From Lachnospiraceae bacterium (GTDB lineage: Bacteria; Bacillota; Clostridia; Lachnospirales; Lachnospiraceae): a DNA stretch of 64,000 nucleotides. Each line of letters starts with the position of its first letter. Positions within the stretch are counted from its first letter, which is position 1. The translations under genes and the position numbers were made by a program. The notes below the pieces were generated by a model, which was given only the letters and a program-made list of their open reading frames with translations, made no database searches and was not told the DNA's origin. This document shows positions 2,797-23,665 of this stretch, piece after piece. The DNA is taken from assembly GCA_028693165.1 (NCBI GenBank), contig JAQUVX010000005.1, forward strand, positions 62,001 to 126,000. Reading direction: 5' to 3'.

Positions 2797-4807
2797 AAAG
2801 CTGGGATTTAGAAGTGCAAAAAATTCTTTTTCTGACTATCTGATTTATATTGTGACAATGGCTATGATTGTTGCCCTCATGTTATCCTTCAACAGTCTGC
2901 TTTTTTCTAAAGAGATTCAGGAAATGTCGGAAATGTTTGGTATCATGTCCATTATTCTTCTGATTGCAACTGTTTTTATTGTGTTCATTGCAGCCTGGCT
3001 GGTTAATTACATGATTGTTTTCAGCTTTCAGAGGAAAAGTAAGGAATATGCCATTTATATGCTTTTAGGAATGAAACAACGAGAAATTGCCCGAATTTAT
3101 TTGATTGAAAATTTGATTTTAAGCAGTATATCATTTTTAGCCGGCATCGTGGTTGGTCTGTTTGTTCAGCAAATACTTATGACCATTTTTTACAGTATGA
3201 TGAATACGGCCTATTACGTCTCTATTAGAATCAACCCGGAAAGTCTGTTGCTGACACTCTTTTGTTATGCGGTGTGTTTTCTCGCTGCACTTCTTTTTAA
3301 CCATCGCAAATTCAGGAGAATGAACATCCGGCTGCTTATGAATCAGGAGAAAGAAAATGAACAGATCACTGATAAAAACTACCGCCTGATCAAATGGCTT
3401 TTCCCTGTCTCGCTCCTGTTTATCCTTTCGTTTCTGATCTATGTACTAAGTGATAACTATACATCGGCAGGAATATTCATGGGAAGTTTTCTTTCACTTA
3501 TCGCATTTTACATGTTTTATGCAGGGTTGGCGGCTGAGCTTGTCCAGAGTATACGCAAGCGGCGGGCTTGGATTTACAAGGGTGCAAACCTTTTTGTTTT
3601 GCGGCAATTATCCTCAAAAATCAAAACCATGCGTTTTACTATGGGAACTCTTAGTATTTTATTTATATGCGCCTTTATGGGAATGTCTGTTTCTATGATG
3701 CTCAACGATTGGCAGAACAAACAACTGGAAGAAAATTTCCCTTTCGATCTTTCTATTCATCATGCCGCTCCTTCCTATTCATTTGAGAAAGAAAAAAGCG
3801 AAATAGAACAGTTCGCCGGAATAAGCGATTCCTATACTTATTCCATATACGAAAATCATTCCACTCTGTTTAATGATTATTTTTATACACATTTACCGGT
3901 TTTTGGTGAAAAATATACCGGGCAGAAAAACATTTCTCCCGACAACAAATATGATAAGAAATATTATCGCTATGATACTTTTATGAAGCTGAGCGATTAT
4001 AACACCCTGCGTTCCATGCTGGGATATGAAAAAGTATCTCTGGCACCTGATGAATACCTGCTGCAGGTAAAACAGCGAATCACTCCTTATCTGGATTCTG
4101 TTTCAGATTTAGTAATTCCAACAGGGGACGGAAAACTGACATTTGCAGGATATAAAGCCGACGCTTTTTGCCAGAATGGACATAACGGTGCGGATTACCT
4201 GATCATTGTTCCCGATGATGCCGCCGATGAAATGAATCTGTATTACTCCCAACTGGCAGCAATGACAAAGCAGCCGGCCGCCAAAGAGCTTGCAGATCAT
4301 TTGCCGGATGATGAGGCAGAGGGAGGAATGGAAGCAGTAGGAACCGATTTCATCATGTATTCGGGGAATATATTTATAAAATCTGTTGCTATTCCAGATA
4401 TGAAATACACCTTAATCCTCCTGTATTTTCCATTGGTATATATTGGACTTGTATTTTTCTGTACAGCTTTAACTGTGCTGTCCGTTCAGCAGCTGAGTCA
4501 TGCGTCAAAATACCGCTATCGTTATGAGGTATTAAGAAAACTGGGCGCAAACAACAGGGAAATAGACCTTATTATTTTTAAGCAGCAAGCATTGTTCTAT
4601 CTTTGTCCAGTCCTTTTGGCTGCTGTATTTAGCGCTGTCATTATTTACTCTTTAAGTAAGAAATTTATCATCTCTACCGGAGTACAGACAAGGCCCCTTC
4701 AATATCTGAGCATTTCCGTAATATTCTTTTTAGGAATCTATCTTCTTTATTTTGTTGCAACTCTGATTTGCTTTAAACGAAATGTAAGTTTGAAAACCAA
4801 TGTTTGA
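2777..4807 (+). CDS. ABC transporter permease, BceB type (FtsX-like)
   Basis: A 676-residue membrane protein starting with GTG inside the ATPase gene. Several hydrophobic helices at the N-terminus, then two more pairs, precede a large hydrophilic domain at roughly residues 310-540. Three C-terminal helices follow. Ten helices with a roughly 200-residue extracellular domain before helix 8 is the layout of BceB permeases, where that domain contacts the peptide and the kinase partner. It is the last gene of the four-gene resistance operon and is followed by an intrinsic terminator at 4852-4886. Confidence 0.88.
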   Translation: MTWQVIEKLGFRSAKNSFSDYLIYIVTMAMIVALMLSFNSLLFSKEIQEMSEMFGIMSIILLIATVFIVFIAAWLVNYMIVFSFQRKSKEYAIYMLLGMKQREIARIYLIENLILSSISFLAGIVVGLFVQQILMTIFYSMMNTAYYVSIRINPESLLLTLFCYAVCFLAALLFNHRKFRRMNIRLLMNQEKENEQITDKNYRLIKWLFPVSLLFILSFLIYVLSDNYTSAGIFMGSFLSLIAFYMFYAGLAAELVQSIRKRRAWIYKGANLFVLRQLSSKIKTMRFTMGTLSILFICAFMGMSVSMMLNDWQNKQLEENFPFDLSIHHAAPSYSFEKEKSEIEQFAGISDSYTYSIYENHSTLFNDYFYTHLPVFGEKYTGQKNISPDNKYDKKYYRYDTFMKLSDYNTLRSMLGYEKVSLAPDEYLLQVKQRITPYLDSVSDLVIPTGDGKLTFAGYKADAFCQNGHNGADYLIIVPDDAADEMNLYYSQLAAMTKQPAAKELADHLPDDEAEGGMEAVGTDFIMYSGNIFIKSVAIPDMKYTLILLYFPLVYIGLVFFCTALTVLSVQQLSHASKYRYRYEVLRKLGANNREIDLIIFKQQALFYLCPVLLAAVFSAVIIYSLSKKFIISTGVQTRPLQYLSISVIFFLGIYLLYFVATLICFKRNVSLKTNV

Positions 4808-18836: not shown

Positions 18837-18946
18837 ATTATATTACCACTTATTTGCGTAATGTCAATATGGTTTTTCCTCAATCTCATGTTTTTTGTTG
18901 TTTTATCGTATGGCTGCTTTTGTAGGGGGTTGTTCCGGGCCTGTAA

Positions 18947-19052
18947 GTGCTTGTTCTTGGCCTATCGCTTCTTGTTCTCGGCTTACCGCTTCTTGCCCTG
19001 GGCTTACCGCTTCTTGCCCTGGGCGCACAAGCTTCTTGTTCTCGGCTTACCG
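18947..19052. repeat. Five degenerate 21-bp tandem repeats
   Basis: Units begin at 18947, 18968, 18989, 19010 and 19032 and share CTTCTTG..CT.GGCTTACCG. Units 2 and 5 are identical; unit 4 has one extra base. They have no spacers and no dyad. The stretch 18837-19319 contains no gene: it holds this array and the first 235-bp repeat. Confidence 0.8.
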
Positions 19053-19080
19053 CCCTGTCTCGCCCTGCCCTTGCTCCCAT

Positions 19081-19316
19081 TTGGACAATTCCGATAGCAC
19101 ATAGCTCTCTATTTTCCAATCACGCTTCATATTTTCATCTTAACTCCATCGTTTGGACAATTCCCCTACAAACACCCCACAGCCTTTCCACAAATCCCAT
19201 AAATTTCGGGTAATTCTTCACTGCATTATTCCAAATTGTCCAACCACCAGTAAATCGCATGAATTACTGATTAAAGTTGGTCAACTCGCTTCGAATTTCC
19301 TTAGGAATGTCCAACT
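19081..19316. repeat. Left 235-bp direct repeat with four TTGGACAATT sites
   Basis: The repeat matches 20445-20679 without gaps over nearly its whole length (offset 1,364 bp; roughly 70-75% identity by eye). It contains TTGGACAATT at 19081 and 19153, its reverse complement AATTGTCCAA at 19234, and a variant AATGTCCAAC at 19307. Site spacings are 72, 81 and 73 bp, close to whole helical turns. The orientation is two sites facing two sites. It ends just before the start region of the nuclease-like gene. Confidence 0.75.
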
Positions 19317-19643
19317 ACGATGCCTCGCCTATATAAATCAAAGCTTCCTGGACATCACTTCTGGTTTTTCGCTCTTTCAAACTTTTACCGCATTCATTTC
19401 TTATTTCAATCTTTCAACCGACAGATCAACTCCACAGGCACATCAACTTATAACACATTATGCTTGACGAAATGCCAAAACGCATTTATACTTGCACTTA
19501 CAGAGTCTTTTGATTATACCTCTGCCCAAAGCAGGCATCATCTCTGTTCTTTTCCAAATATCCGATTTCAGTTACACCAGCAATCTCAAATCCATCACCC
19601 AAACTTTAACAAAAGTTCATCCGCAGAAAAGGAGGTTTTCACA

Positions 19644-20426
19644 ACGTTTTATACGCAAATACAAAACATGCGCAGCAAATGCATGGCCCAATTAGCATCC
19701 TTAGAAAAAGAATTAACACAGTTTCCAGAGGGCAAATTGCTTTGTGTCAAAAATGGAAACTATGTAAAATGCTTCAAGAGTAATGGCAAACATCCGCTTT
19801 ATATTCCCAAAAGCAAACGTTCCCTGGCCGAGACTTTGGCCGTCAAAAAATACTATACACTGCAAATCGAAGAATTATTGCAGGAAATCACTTTGCTCGA
19901 TCAATGTCTGGAACGCTATCGCCGTGTGCAGCCAAAATACACAGAGCTGTTAGCCCCTTCTTCTTGTTACTGTGAACTCCTAAAGCCTTATTTTCAGGCA
20001 ATGTCTGAGCACTTGTCTCAGTGGCCCACCGCAGATTACAATCACAATCCCAACTATCCGGAACACCTGATTCACAAAACACTCTCCGGTCACAAGGTTC
20101 GCTCCAAATCCGAAGTTATGATTGCAAATGCACTCTTCCTCAACAAAATCCCTTATCGATACGAATGTGAATTGTCTTTTGACAGCCTCACATTTTATCC
20201 CGATTTCACAATTCTCCATCCCAAAACCATGGAACTATTTTATTGGGAACACTTTGGAATGATGGACAATCCGAGTTATTGTGAAAAAGCATTTAACAAG
20301 TTAAAAATCTATGGTTCCAATGGAATCATCCCTTCGCTAAACCTCATCACCTCCTATGAAACACAGGATCATCCCATTGACTCCGAGAATATCCAGAACA
20401 TCATCGACGAATATTTTTTATCATAA
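19644..20426 (+). CDS. PD-(D/E)XK nuclease-like orphan protein, start codon possibly lost
   Basis: A 260-residue reading from 19644. The N-terminal half is a charged helical region with probable coiled coil (about 65-95). The C-terminal half looks like a restriction-endonuclease fold: E157 in VRSKSEVMIANAL, D187 in FYPDFTI and E202 in LFYWEHFG. Such an E...D...ExH/K pattern is seen in TnsA-like and Holliday-junction-type nucleases; the assignment is by pattern only. AGAAAAGGAGG (19625-19635) is ideally placed for a start at 19644, but that codon is ACG, one change from ATG. The frame is open upstream to an ATG at 19320, and the next internal ATG is 19668. It is more AT-rich than its neighbours and sits between two 235-bp direct repeats. 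Confidence 0.65.
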   Translation, partial: TFYTQIQNMRSKCMAQLASLEKELTQFPEGKLLCVKNGNYVKCFKSNGKHPLYIPKSKRSLAETLAVKKYYTLQIEELLQEITLLDQCLERYRRVQPKYTELLAPSSCYCELLKPYFQAMSEHLSQWPTADYNHNPNYPEHLIHKTLSGHKVRSKSEVMIANALFLNKIPYRYECELSFDSLTFYPDFTILHPKTMELFYWEHFGMMDNPSYCEKAFNKLKIYGSNGIIPSLNLITSYETQDHPIDSENIQNIIDEYFLS

Positions 20427-20444
20427 GCTTGTTTCGCATCTCAG

Positions 20445-20679
20445 TTGGACAACTTCCATGATAGTTGGTGTTCGATTTTCCACTCAGGCTCACTATTTTT
20501 ATCTTAACTCCACCGTTTGGACAATTTTACCTGCAAATATCCTACAGTTTTCCGCAAATCCTGTAAATTCTGGATAATGCTTCAGTAATACACCTAAAAT
20601 TGTCCAAACACCCGCAAATCTTAACTCATCCTGGATCGCCTATGGATAATTGGTTTGAATTTCCCTTGTAATTGTCCAA
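20445..20679. repeat. Right 235-bp direct repeat with TTGGACAATT sites
   Basis: This is the partner of 19081-19316. It carries TTGGACAACT (20445), TTGGACAATT (20517), AATTGTCCAA (20598) and AATTGTCCAA (20670), with spacings of 72, 81 and 72 bp. The rest of 20427-20844 has no gene; the promoter of the following lipoprotein gene probably lies near 20760-20815. Confidence 0.75.
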
Positions 20680-23293: not shown

Positions 23294-23427
23294 TTGGACA
23301 ATTCCTCATCAAAAATCGTAGGATTATCCAGAAATCAAGCAAAAACAAAGGATTTGAGGGCTATTTGGACAATTCCATCAAGAACCGTCCACTGTTGCCC
23401 TCAAATCCCAATATTCCCGGACAATTC
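23294..23427. repeat. Third cluster of TTGGACAATT sites
   Basis: TTGGACAATTCC occurs at 23294 and 23365, 71 bp apart, and CCGGACAATTC at 23418. The 71-bp spacing repeats that inside the two 235-bp repeats at 19.1 and 20.4 kb, although the sequence between sites is different. Confidence 0.65.
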
Positions 23428-23466: not shown

Positions 23467-23665
23467 TCAACCAACTCTCTGACTCGACCAAGTCCCTAAT
23501 CTCAACCAAGTCCCTGATCTCAATCAAGTCCCTGGTGTCAACCAAGTCCCTGTACTCAACCAAATCTCAAGTTCAAACAAGCTCCAAGTTTAAGCATACT
23601 TCAAGCATAGTTCAAACACCGTTCAAGCTCACTTCAAACACACTTCAAACTCAAAACAAGCAAAT
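23467..23665. repeat. Tandem repeats of about 18 bp (TCAACCAAGTCCCTGATC type) grading into a TTCAAACAC array
   Basis: Five or six units of TCAACCAAGTCCCTGATC type at 23467-23570 are followed by a looser series based on TTCAAACAC/TTCAAG up to about 23665. They have no unique spacers, so this is not CRISPR. Confidence 0.7.

Follow-up and report, generated by a model that had tools for sequence, protein, structure and literature searches.

A nuclease gene flanked by helically phased four-dyad arrays in a Lachnospiraceae genome: a candidate RAYT/REPIN-like system built on a PD-(D/E)XK-like enzyme

A stretch of 64,000 nucleotides from a Lachnospiraceae bacterium (contig JAQUVX010000005.1, positions 62,001 to 126,000; hereafter the window, to which all unprefixed positions refer) carries a nuclease-like gene (19644..20426, + strand) between two similar repeats, and the question raised by this locus is what links the gene to the repeats. 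An original prediction, made from the letters of this DNA, had described a nuclease-like orphan gene between two direct repeats, each with four evenly spaced copies of the site TTGGACAATT, and had proposed a minimal mobile or self-regulating unit. The best explanation, to which we assign a probability of roughly 0.6, is a nuclease with its own cognate repeats, resembling the RAYT/REPIN systems but built on a PD-(D/E)XK-like nuclease.

The gene family was sampled as 83 homologue loci (L numbers; their genomes carry G numbers), several of which come from close relatives, and locus counts are accordingly not independent. The window's genome is G000, and a genome of the same genus, G004, contains the best-kept arrays. 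Among the 76 loci with enough flank on both sides, 21 showed a repeat of 54–342 bp on both sides of the gene, direct or inverted, at E < 1e-4, whereas none of 129 control windows of like geometry, displaced by 2.6 kb, did so; L084 and L086 are one sequence. Counting 9-mers on both strands with up to one mismatch and at least two copies on each strand, a 9-mer occurring at least eight times was found in 28 of 77 loci vs. 3 of 231 shuffles and 2 of 256 shifted windows, and one occurring at least six times in 57 of 77 vs. 34 of 231 and 51 of 256, respectively. The array motif varies between loci, and in many of the relatives, mostly Lachnospiraceae, the geometry is kept.

The complete array in relatives consists of four inverted-repeat dyads, mirror-symmetric and helically phased, over approximately 235–275 bp. 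Its half-sites, in many members about 10 bp long with a GG core, form inverted pairs about 28 bp apart from start to start. In G004, 25 distinct arrays holding six or more half-sites were compared, of which 11 have all eight in the order ><><><><, the others lacking one or two or being irregular; their dyad centres are spaced by 82 or 92, 52, and 82 or 92 bp. The implied dyad centres in G000 are spaced mostly by 71–73, 52–54 and 70–72 bp, with 82 bp in mixed arrays and some irregular cases. A four-dyad score (maximum 16), calculated with a central spacing of 52 bp that had been chosen after inspecting the arrays of the genus, reached 9 or more in 45 of the 83 loci and in none of 83 shuffles (shuffle maximum 8). 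With the central spacing freed (30–79 bp), 19 of the 20 loci that scored at least 11 still had 52 among their best values, the exception being L092 (60–62); this value was usually tied with neighbouring ones, since the search tolerated 1 bp, and for L100, L132 and L136 there were ties with distant values too. Outer spacings lie near 62, 71, 81 or 92 bp, which are helical-turn steps, with exceptions in L142 and L139 (steps of 52) and in L132 and L136 (misfit on one side). Same-strand distances (38 loci, n = 146) had a period of 10.2–10.3 bp with a phase near zero (R 0.515 vs. a maximum of 0.417 in 2000 joint shifts), so that the proposal that all sites face the same side of the helix holds across the family. 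The AT content of the G004 spacers was phased at 10.3 bp as well, with a power of 0.13–0.18 inside dyads and 0.09–0.12 between them, each above 2000 random rolls; phasing in the 54 bp outside the arrays was weaker (0.04), still above the null. This AT/GC phasing suggests bent or wrapped DNA, with shared descent of the copies as an alternative source. By eye, a further conserved stretch resembling GGTT(T/G)ACATAA lies between the outer and inner dyads of G004 arrays (L214 and relatives).

Both repeats in the window are worn versions of this architecture, with dyads spaced by about 72, 52 and 72 bp. The upstream array (19081..19314, unstranded) has its best half-sites at 19081+, 19153+ and 19234- and weaker ones at 19110-, 19277+ and 19305-; the downstream array (20445..20679, unstranded) has half-sites at 20445+, 20517+, 20598- and 20670- and a weaker one at 20642+. 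Matches to TTGGACAATT are exact at 19081+, 19153+, 19234-, 20517+, 20598- and 20670-, with one mismatch at 20445+ and two at 19305-, the fourth upstream site. The eight originally predicted sites were thus found in place, their centre spacings of 72, 81 and 72 bp were correct, and four TTGGACAATT sites do exist in each repeat; they constitute, however, half of a worn array of eight half-sites in four dyads rather than a complete four-site array. At the remaining four of the eight positions known from relatives, the best fits within 2 bp deviate by 2, 5, 3 and 2 bases in the upstream array and by 3, 4, 3 and 2 in the downstream one, so that these half-sites are worn or lost here. Ungapped alignment of the two repeats gives 62% identity over 236 bp, and gapped alignment 70% over 245 bp. 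A third array, more worn and without a gene, lies at 23294..23426 (unstranded; 23294+, 23365+, and 23417+ with two mismatches). Exact copies of TTGGACAATT number eight in the window, including those at 23294 and 23365, compared to a mean of 0.2 and a maximum of 1 in 50 first-order shuffles; with up to one mismatch there are 12 vs. a shuffle mean of 5.8, a small excess reached by 3 of 100 shuffles.

Beyond the window, the abundance of the motif follows the gene. G000 and G004, both with the cognate gene, contain 64 and 391 copies of TTGGACAATT, respectively, against 0–14 in 22 other genomes of the genus; the corresponding values for a reversed-pattern control were 9, 8 and 0–13. Counts were slightly above the control in G016 (11 vs. 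1; without a homologue) and G012 (14 vs. 4; a helicase-type match only). The arrays are predominantly intergenic: 38 of 42 lie mostly outside open reading frames of 150 codons, which cover 70% of the same loci. The flanking repeat was also found elsewhere in the genome in two other species, in one of which (G100) the motif is nevertheless hardly dispersed (8 exact copies, 6 of them on the gene's contig; 0–3 in 11 other genomes). A second homologue in the window's genome (G000:C19:58721-59503, 53% identical) has its own array of TTTTGGTAA with centres at 82-52-82. Several dispersed G000 arrays (L003, L027, L147, L149 and L159) hold both TTGGACAATT and TTTTGGTAA half-sites in helical phase, and some of their dyads possibly combine one half-site of each paralogue, half-sites with two mismatches being uncertain.

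Comparison of orthologous places supported dispersed intergenic arrays with sharp ends that are present in one genome and absent in another. The G004 gene with its downstream array forms an insertion of about 1.5 kb, the flanking segments of which are adjacent in 21 of 23 other same-genus genomes among the matches listed, with a gap of at most 227 bp and, in G003, a 7-base overlap; for G017 and G020 the matches listed do not include the right neighbour, and the insertion is missing there too. Arrays are likewise absent from the nrdG-tadA spacer (gene names assigned by eye; about 450 bp in G004 vs. 61 bp in G000), from a place near 16.3 kb of L219 (459 bp in G004 vs. 50 bp in G000), and from upstream of the G004 gene (377 bp vs. 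54 bp in G018). The array upstream of the G004 gene matches at least 11 other places in G004 at 74–80%, at least eight of them in one piece from the first to the last half-site, which indicates copying of units with defined ends; among other G004 arrays the similarity is 61–77%. The ends of the arrays are inverted terminal repeats, TTTGGACAATT ... AATTGTCCAAA. In the 120-bp flanks of 36 arrays, the longest exact direct repeat was 5–11 bp in 35, as in unrelated flanks, and one array (L194, nrdG-tadA spacer of G004) was flanked by an 18-bp exact direct repeat; long target duplications are therefore not the rule, and short ones, invisible to the test used, are possible. An empty site was also sought for the window gene itself; the left flank was found in relatives, and the right flank did not adjoin it among the matches listed. 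Shared flanks or syntenic gene positions were observed in several species pairs and may point to long residence, but a close homologue is present in only 2 of 24 genomes of the window's genus. L084 and L086 were considered as proof of movement and rejected, as they are identical over 10,729 bases, pointing to a larger duplication or an assembly effect. In keeping with the mobile unit originally suggested, arrays and one gene-plus-array unit occur at sites in one genome and are missing from the orthologous sites of others.

The pairing of protein and array was reflected in their covariation. A recognisable GG half-site was registered by hand, before residue comparison, in 44 of the 83 loci, which imposes the GG core on this set; GG was present in all 20 top-scoring four-dyad loci, which had been found without a GG condition. 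Motif distance correlated with protein distance at r = 0.357 for residues 1–47, 0.254 for the linker and 0.249 for the nuclease part (each p 0.0005), and at 0.093 for the coiled coil (p 0.08), residues being numbered from the in-frame ATG at 19668 (252 aa), not from the probable ACG start described below. Residues 1–47 kept a partial correlation of 0.269 when the nuclease part was controlled for, compared to 0.053 for the nuclease part controlled for residues 1–47. Of all pairings between 182 columns and 7 motif positions, residue 32 with the base preceding GG scored highest (0.603 vs. a maximum of 0.581 across 1000 label permutations): T was accompanied by Tyr in 19/19 and A by Tyr in 3/3, G by Arg in 13/19 (otherwise 2 Asn, 2 His, 1 Phe and 1 Tyr), and C by Cys, His or Gln. 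Residue 27 tracked the base following GG, with Val or Ile in 13 of 15 cases of A. Both residues fall in a predicted N-terminal beta-hairpin (codons 21–39; 19728..19784, +), and because residue 32 co-varies with the base preceding the GG core, the protein probably reads the half-site via this hairpin. The next pairs lay partly in the nuclease domain (the first base paired with residues 212, 136 and 167); their probable source is shared ancestry, for which the tests control only partly. A held-out check of the Tyr/Arg pattern in nine loci with a usable GG motif was weak and mixed, with six fitting and three not (L063, L106 and L120), where Asn or His with G was scored as a fit and the calls depended on the author's reading. 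Flanking repeats, shared geometry, genome-wide counts and this covariation tie the repeats to the gene family, and do not agree with ordinary dispersed repeats unlinked to it.

The window protein is best described as two-part, an interpretation supported by sequence and structure prediction: an N-terminal beta-hairpin and long helix, followed by a C-terminal PD-(D/E)XK-like nuclease (20100..20423, +) in which R145-S-K-S-E149, P178-D179 and Y192-W193-E194-H195 are invariant in 57 aligned sequences. The predicted model has a PD-(D/E)XK-like core, in line with the suggested nuclease fold; the ExH element originally read into the motif was wrong, as the order is E149...P178-D179...W193-E194-H195, with E and H adjacent. 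A Foldseek search of the N-terminal part against the PDB gave a best E of 0.2 and no clear relative, and the VIA matches were mostly long-helix proteins; a resemblance to the arm-binding domains of integrases is not claimed. The long open reading frame begins at 19320, but its first part is unmatched by most relatives, and alignments begin near 19644, where a probable ACG start lies 8 nt past a strong Shine-Dalgarno sequence, AAGGAGG (19629..19635, +), comparable sequences being present in 62 of 82 family loci. This start yields 260 aa, the length given originally. In those 62 loci the start-like codon was ACG in 24, ATG in 14, TTG in 8, ATT in 8 and another in 8, as counted 4–10 nt past the Shine-Dalgarno sequence with canonical codons preferred over ACG and ACG over the rest; at exactly 7–8 nt, 20 of 51 in-frame codons were ACG, compared to 0.5% of codons within genes. 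The natural reading of a weak start codon would be a brake on a dangerous enzyme. The reported difference in base composition was confirmed as a mild one (GC 0.407 in the gene vs. 0.502 in the window; rank 55 of 633 equal-size windows).

The gene is not an orphan, as originally described, since it belongs to a large family with a second copy in G000. The absence of a named family was corroborated: the family has no name in Pfam, NCBIfam or the PDB (57 members compared with Pfam and NCBIfam), and no transposase family was among the Pfam or NCBIfam matches of these members. PADLOC recognised only the nuclease domain, as the tail of the candidate defence protein PDC-S68, which all 57 of 57 members match; for the window protein the match (E 4e-34) was restricted to profile positions 1089–1219 of 1221. 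The two thus have the C-terminal nuclease domain in common, but PDC-S68 carries a fused helicase that is missing here, where a beta-hairpin/long-helix N-terminus and DNA arrays are found instead. Long open frames of 1113–1266 aa with the same nuclease domain were seen in G012:C11 (L051), G058, G047, G053 and G004:C30, and in L051 RecD-like helicase domains precede it. A published description of this system was not found in a literature search, most subscription journals being outside its reach.

Among known systems the closest parallel is RAYT/REPIN, in which a low-copy gene for the enzyme lies between copies of its own repeat, the repeats are scattered over the genome, and variants of the enzyme each have a repeat of their own (PMC8049555, PMC3686654). 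The likeness here lies in the flanking of the gene by its cognate repeat in part of the family and in the strong enrichment of repeats in the two of 24 genomes with a close homologue, weaker in G100. RAYTs, however, belong to the tyrosine (HUH) transposases, and a REP is a short palindrome headed by GTAG/GTGG, not a set of four phased dyads over about 250 bp; because enzyme fold and repeat differ, the system would work like RAYT/REPIN without belonging to it. Several dimer-binding sites in fixed geometry also make up the res sites of Tn3-type resolvases (PMC9943657), dimer binding here being by analogy, but those combine a serine recombinase with three sites, whereas a nuclease-like protein is paired with four dyads here. 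Tn7 with its TnsA differs, as no TnsB or TnsC was found by Pfam among the seven neighbours of the window gene, and the homing endonuclease I-Bth0305I differs in that arrays of many sites are present here.

Geometry, gene–array pairing and dispersal are supported by these comparisons, and recognition is strongly suggested by covariation; from binding onwards, the following steps of cutting and copying are what we infer. A dimer would read one dyad with two beta-hairpins, and four dimers on one helix face would form a controlled complex over about 250 bp. In the assembled complex the PD-(D/E)XK part may cut, and the array would then be copied elsewhere via host repair, so that arrays would spread in trans, like REPINs spread by RAYT transposases, while the gene itself would remain low-copy and often be translated from weak start codons. 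More tentatively, and with the odds somewhat against it, this may be a new kind of mobile element, in which a PD-(D/E)XK enzyme that lacks its own recombinase of the DDE, HUH, serine or tyrosine type would assemble as four dimers on a bent array of about 250 bp and copy such arrays around the chromosome, with a residue-to-base recognition code in its beta-hairpin and with two paralogues in one genome that may share mixed arrays.

The main rival is a host nucleoprotein system, in which protein and arrays would structure the chromosome or regulate genes and the nuclease part would serve another step. The mostly intergenic arrays, the phased spacers and the purifying selection on the nuclease gene are in keeping with it, as is the retention of half-sites while spacers diverge: site vs. 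spacer identity was 0.90 and 0.94 vs. 0.67 and 0.66 in the orthologous arrays L132/L135 and 1.00 vs. 0.93 in L125/L126, although the seven pairs, each offering two sides, yielded only three usable comparisons, and the values are biased upward because sites were marked by their match to the motif. Presence or absence of arrays at orthologous places, their position on both sides of the gene in many species, the invariant catalytic-looking residues and the restriction of a close homologue to 2 of 24 genomes of the genus argue against such a host role, which we regard as unlikely.

A function in defence or addiction, with the nuclease attacking invading DNA and the chromosomal arrays holding it or marking self, would suit the domain common to PDC-S68 and a weak start codon on a dangerous protein; this is nevertheless improbable, since PDC-S68 is itself a candidate and its helicase is absent, none of the seven neighbours tested was recognised by Pfam as a methylase or another partner, and the dispersal of arrays would remain unexplained. 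The inverted terminal half-sites and sharp unit ends of the arrays are also features of miniature inverted-repeat transposable elements (MITEs), which an unrelated transposase could mobilise with the nuclease as a passenger. That the counts follow the gene, that arrays with differing motifs accompany it in many species, and that residues co-vary with bases make this very improbable. A nuclease gene accompanied by short conserved repeats whose spacers vary even recalls guide-RNA arrays (CRISPR- or TIGR-like); helical phasing in DNA, mirror symmetry, dispersal on both strands and the lack of any Rfam match in 10 loci leave that reading scarcely credible. The RAYT/REPIN-like reading, if true, would bring a second, unrelated enzyme class into this type of arrangement and would raise the question of how a restriction-enzyme fold could spread DNA. 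The natural variety of half-sites with matching residue changes would make the DNA-recognition code of a small domain directly accessible, the arrays would lend themselves to testing how a nuclease is controlled by helical phasing, and the system as a whole would account for a class of intergenic repeats in gut bacteria.

The neighbours of the window gene are ordinary, the seven comprising by Pfam a P-type ATPase, HMA, ArsR, a metallo-beta-lactamase fold, HxlR, PBP and one unmatched protein. Tandem repeats with a 21-bp step (GCTTCTTG...GGCTTACC) occupy positions 18946–19053, directly 5' of the upstream array, and short degenerate tandem repeats (caaccaagtccctg) lie at 23480–23570, beyond the third array. 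Tandem repeats with steps of 14, 19 and 31 bp were also observed beside homologues without a clear four-dyad array, namely in L103 (approximately 4510–4760), downstream in L072 and upstream in L121.
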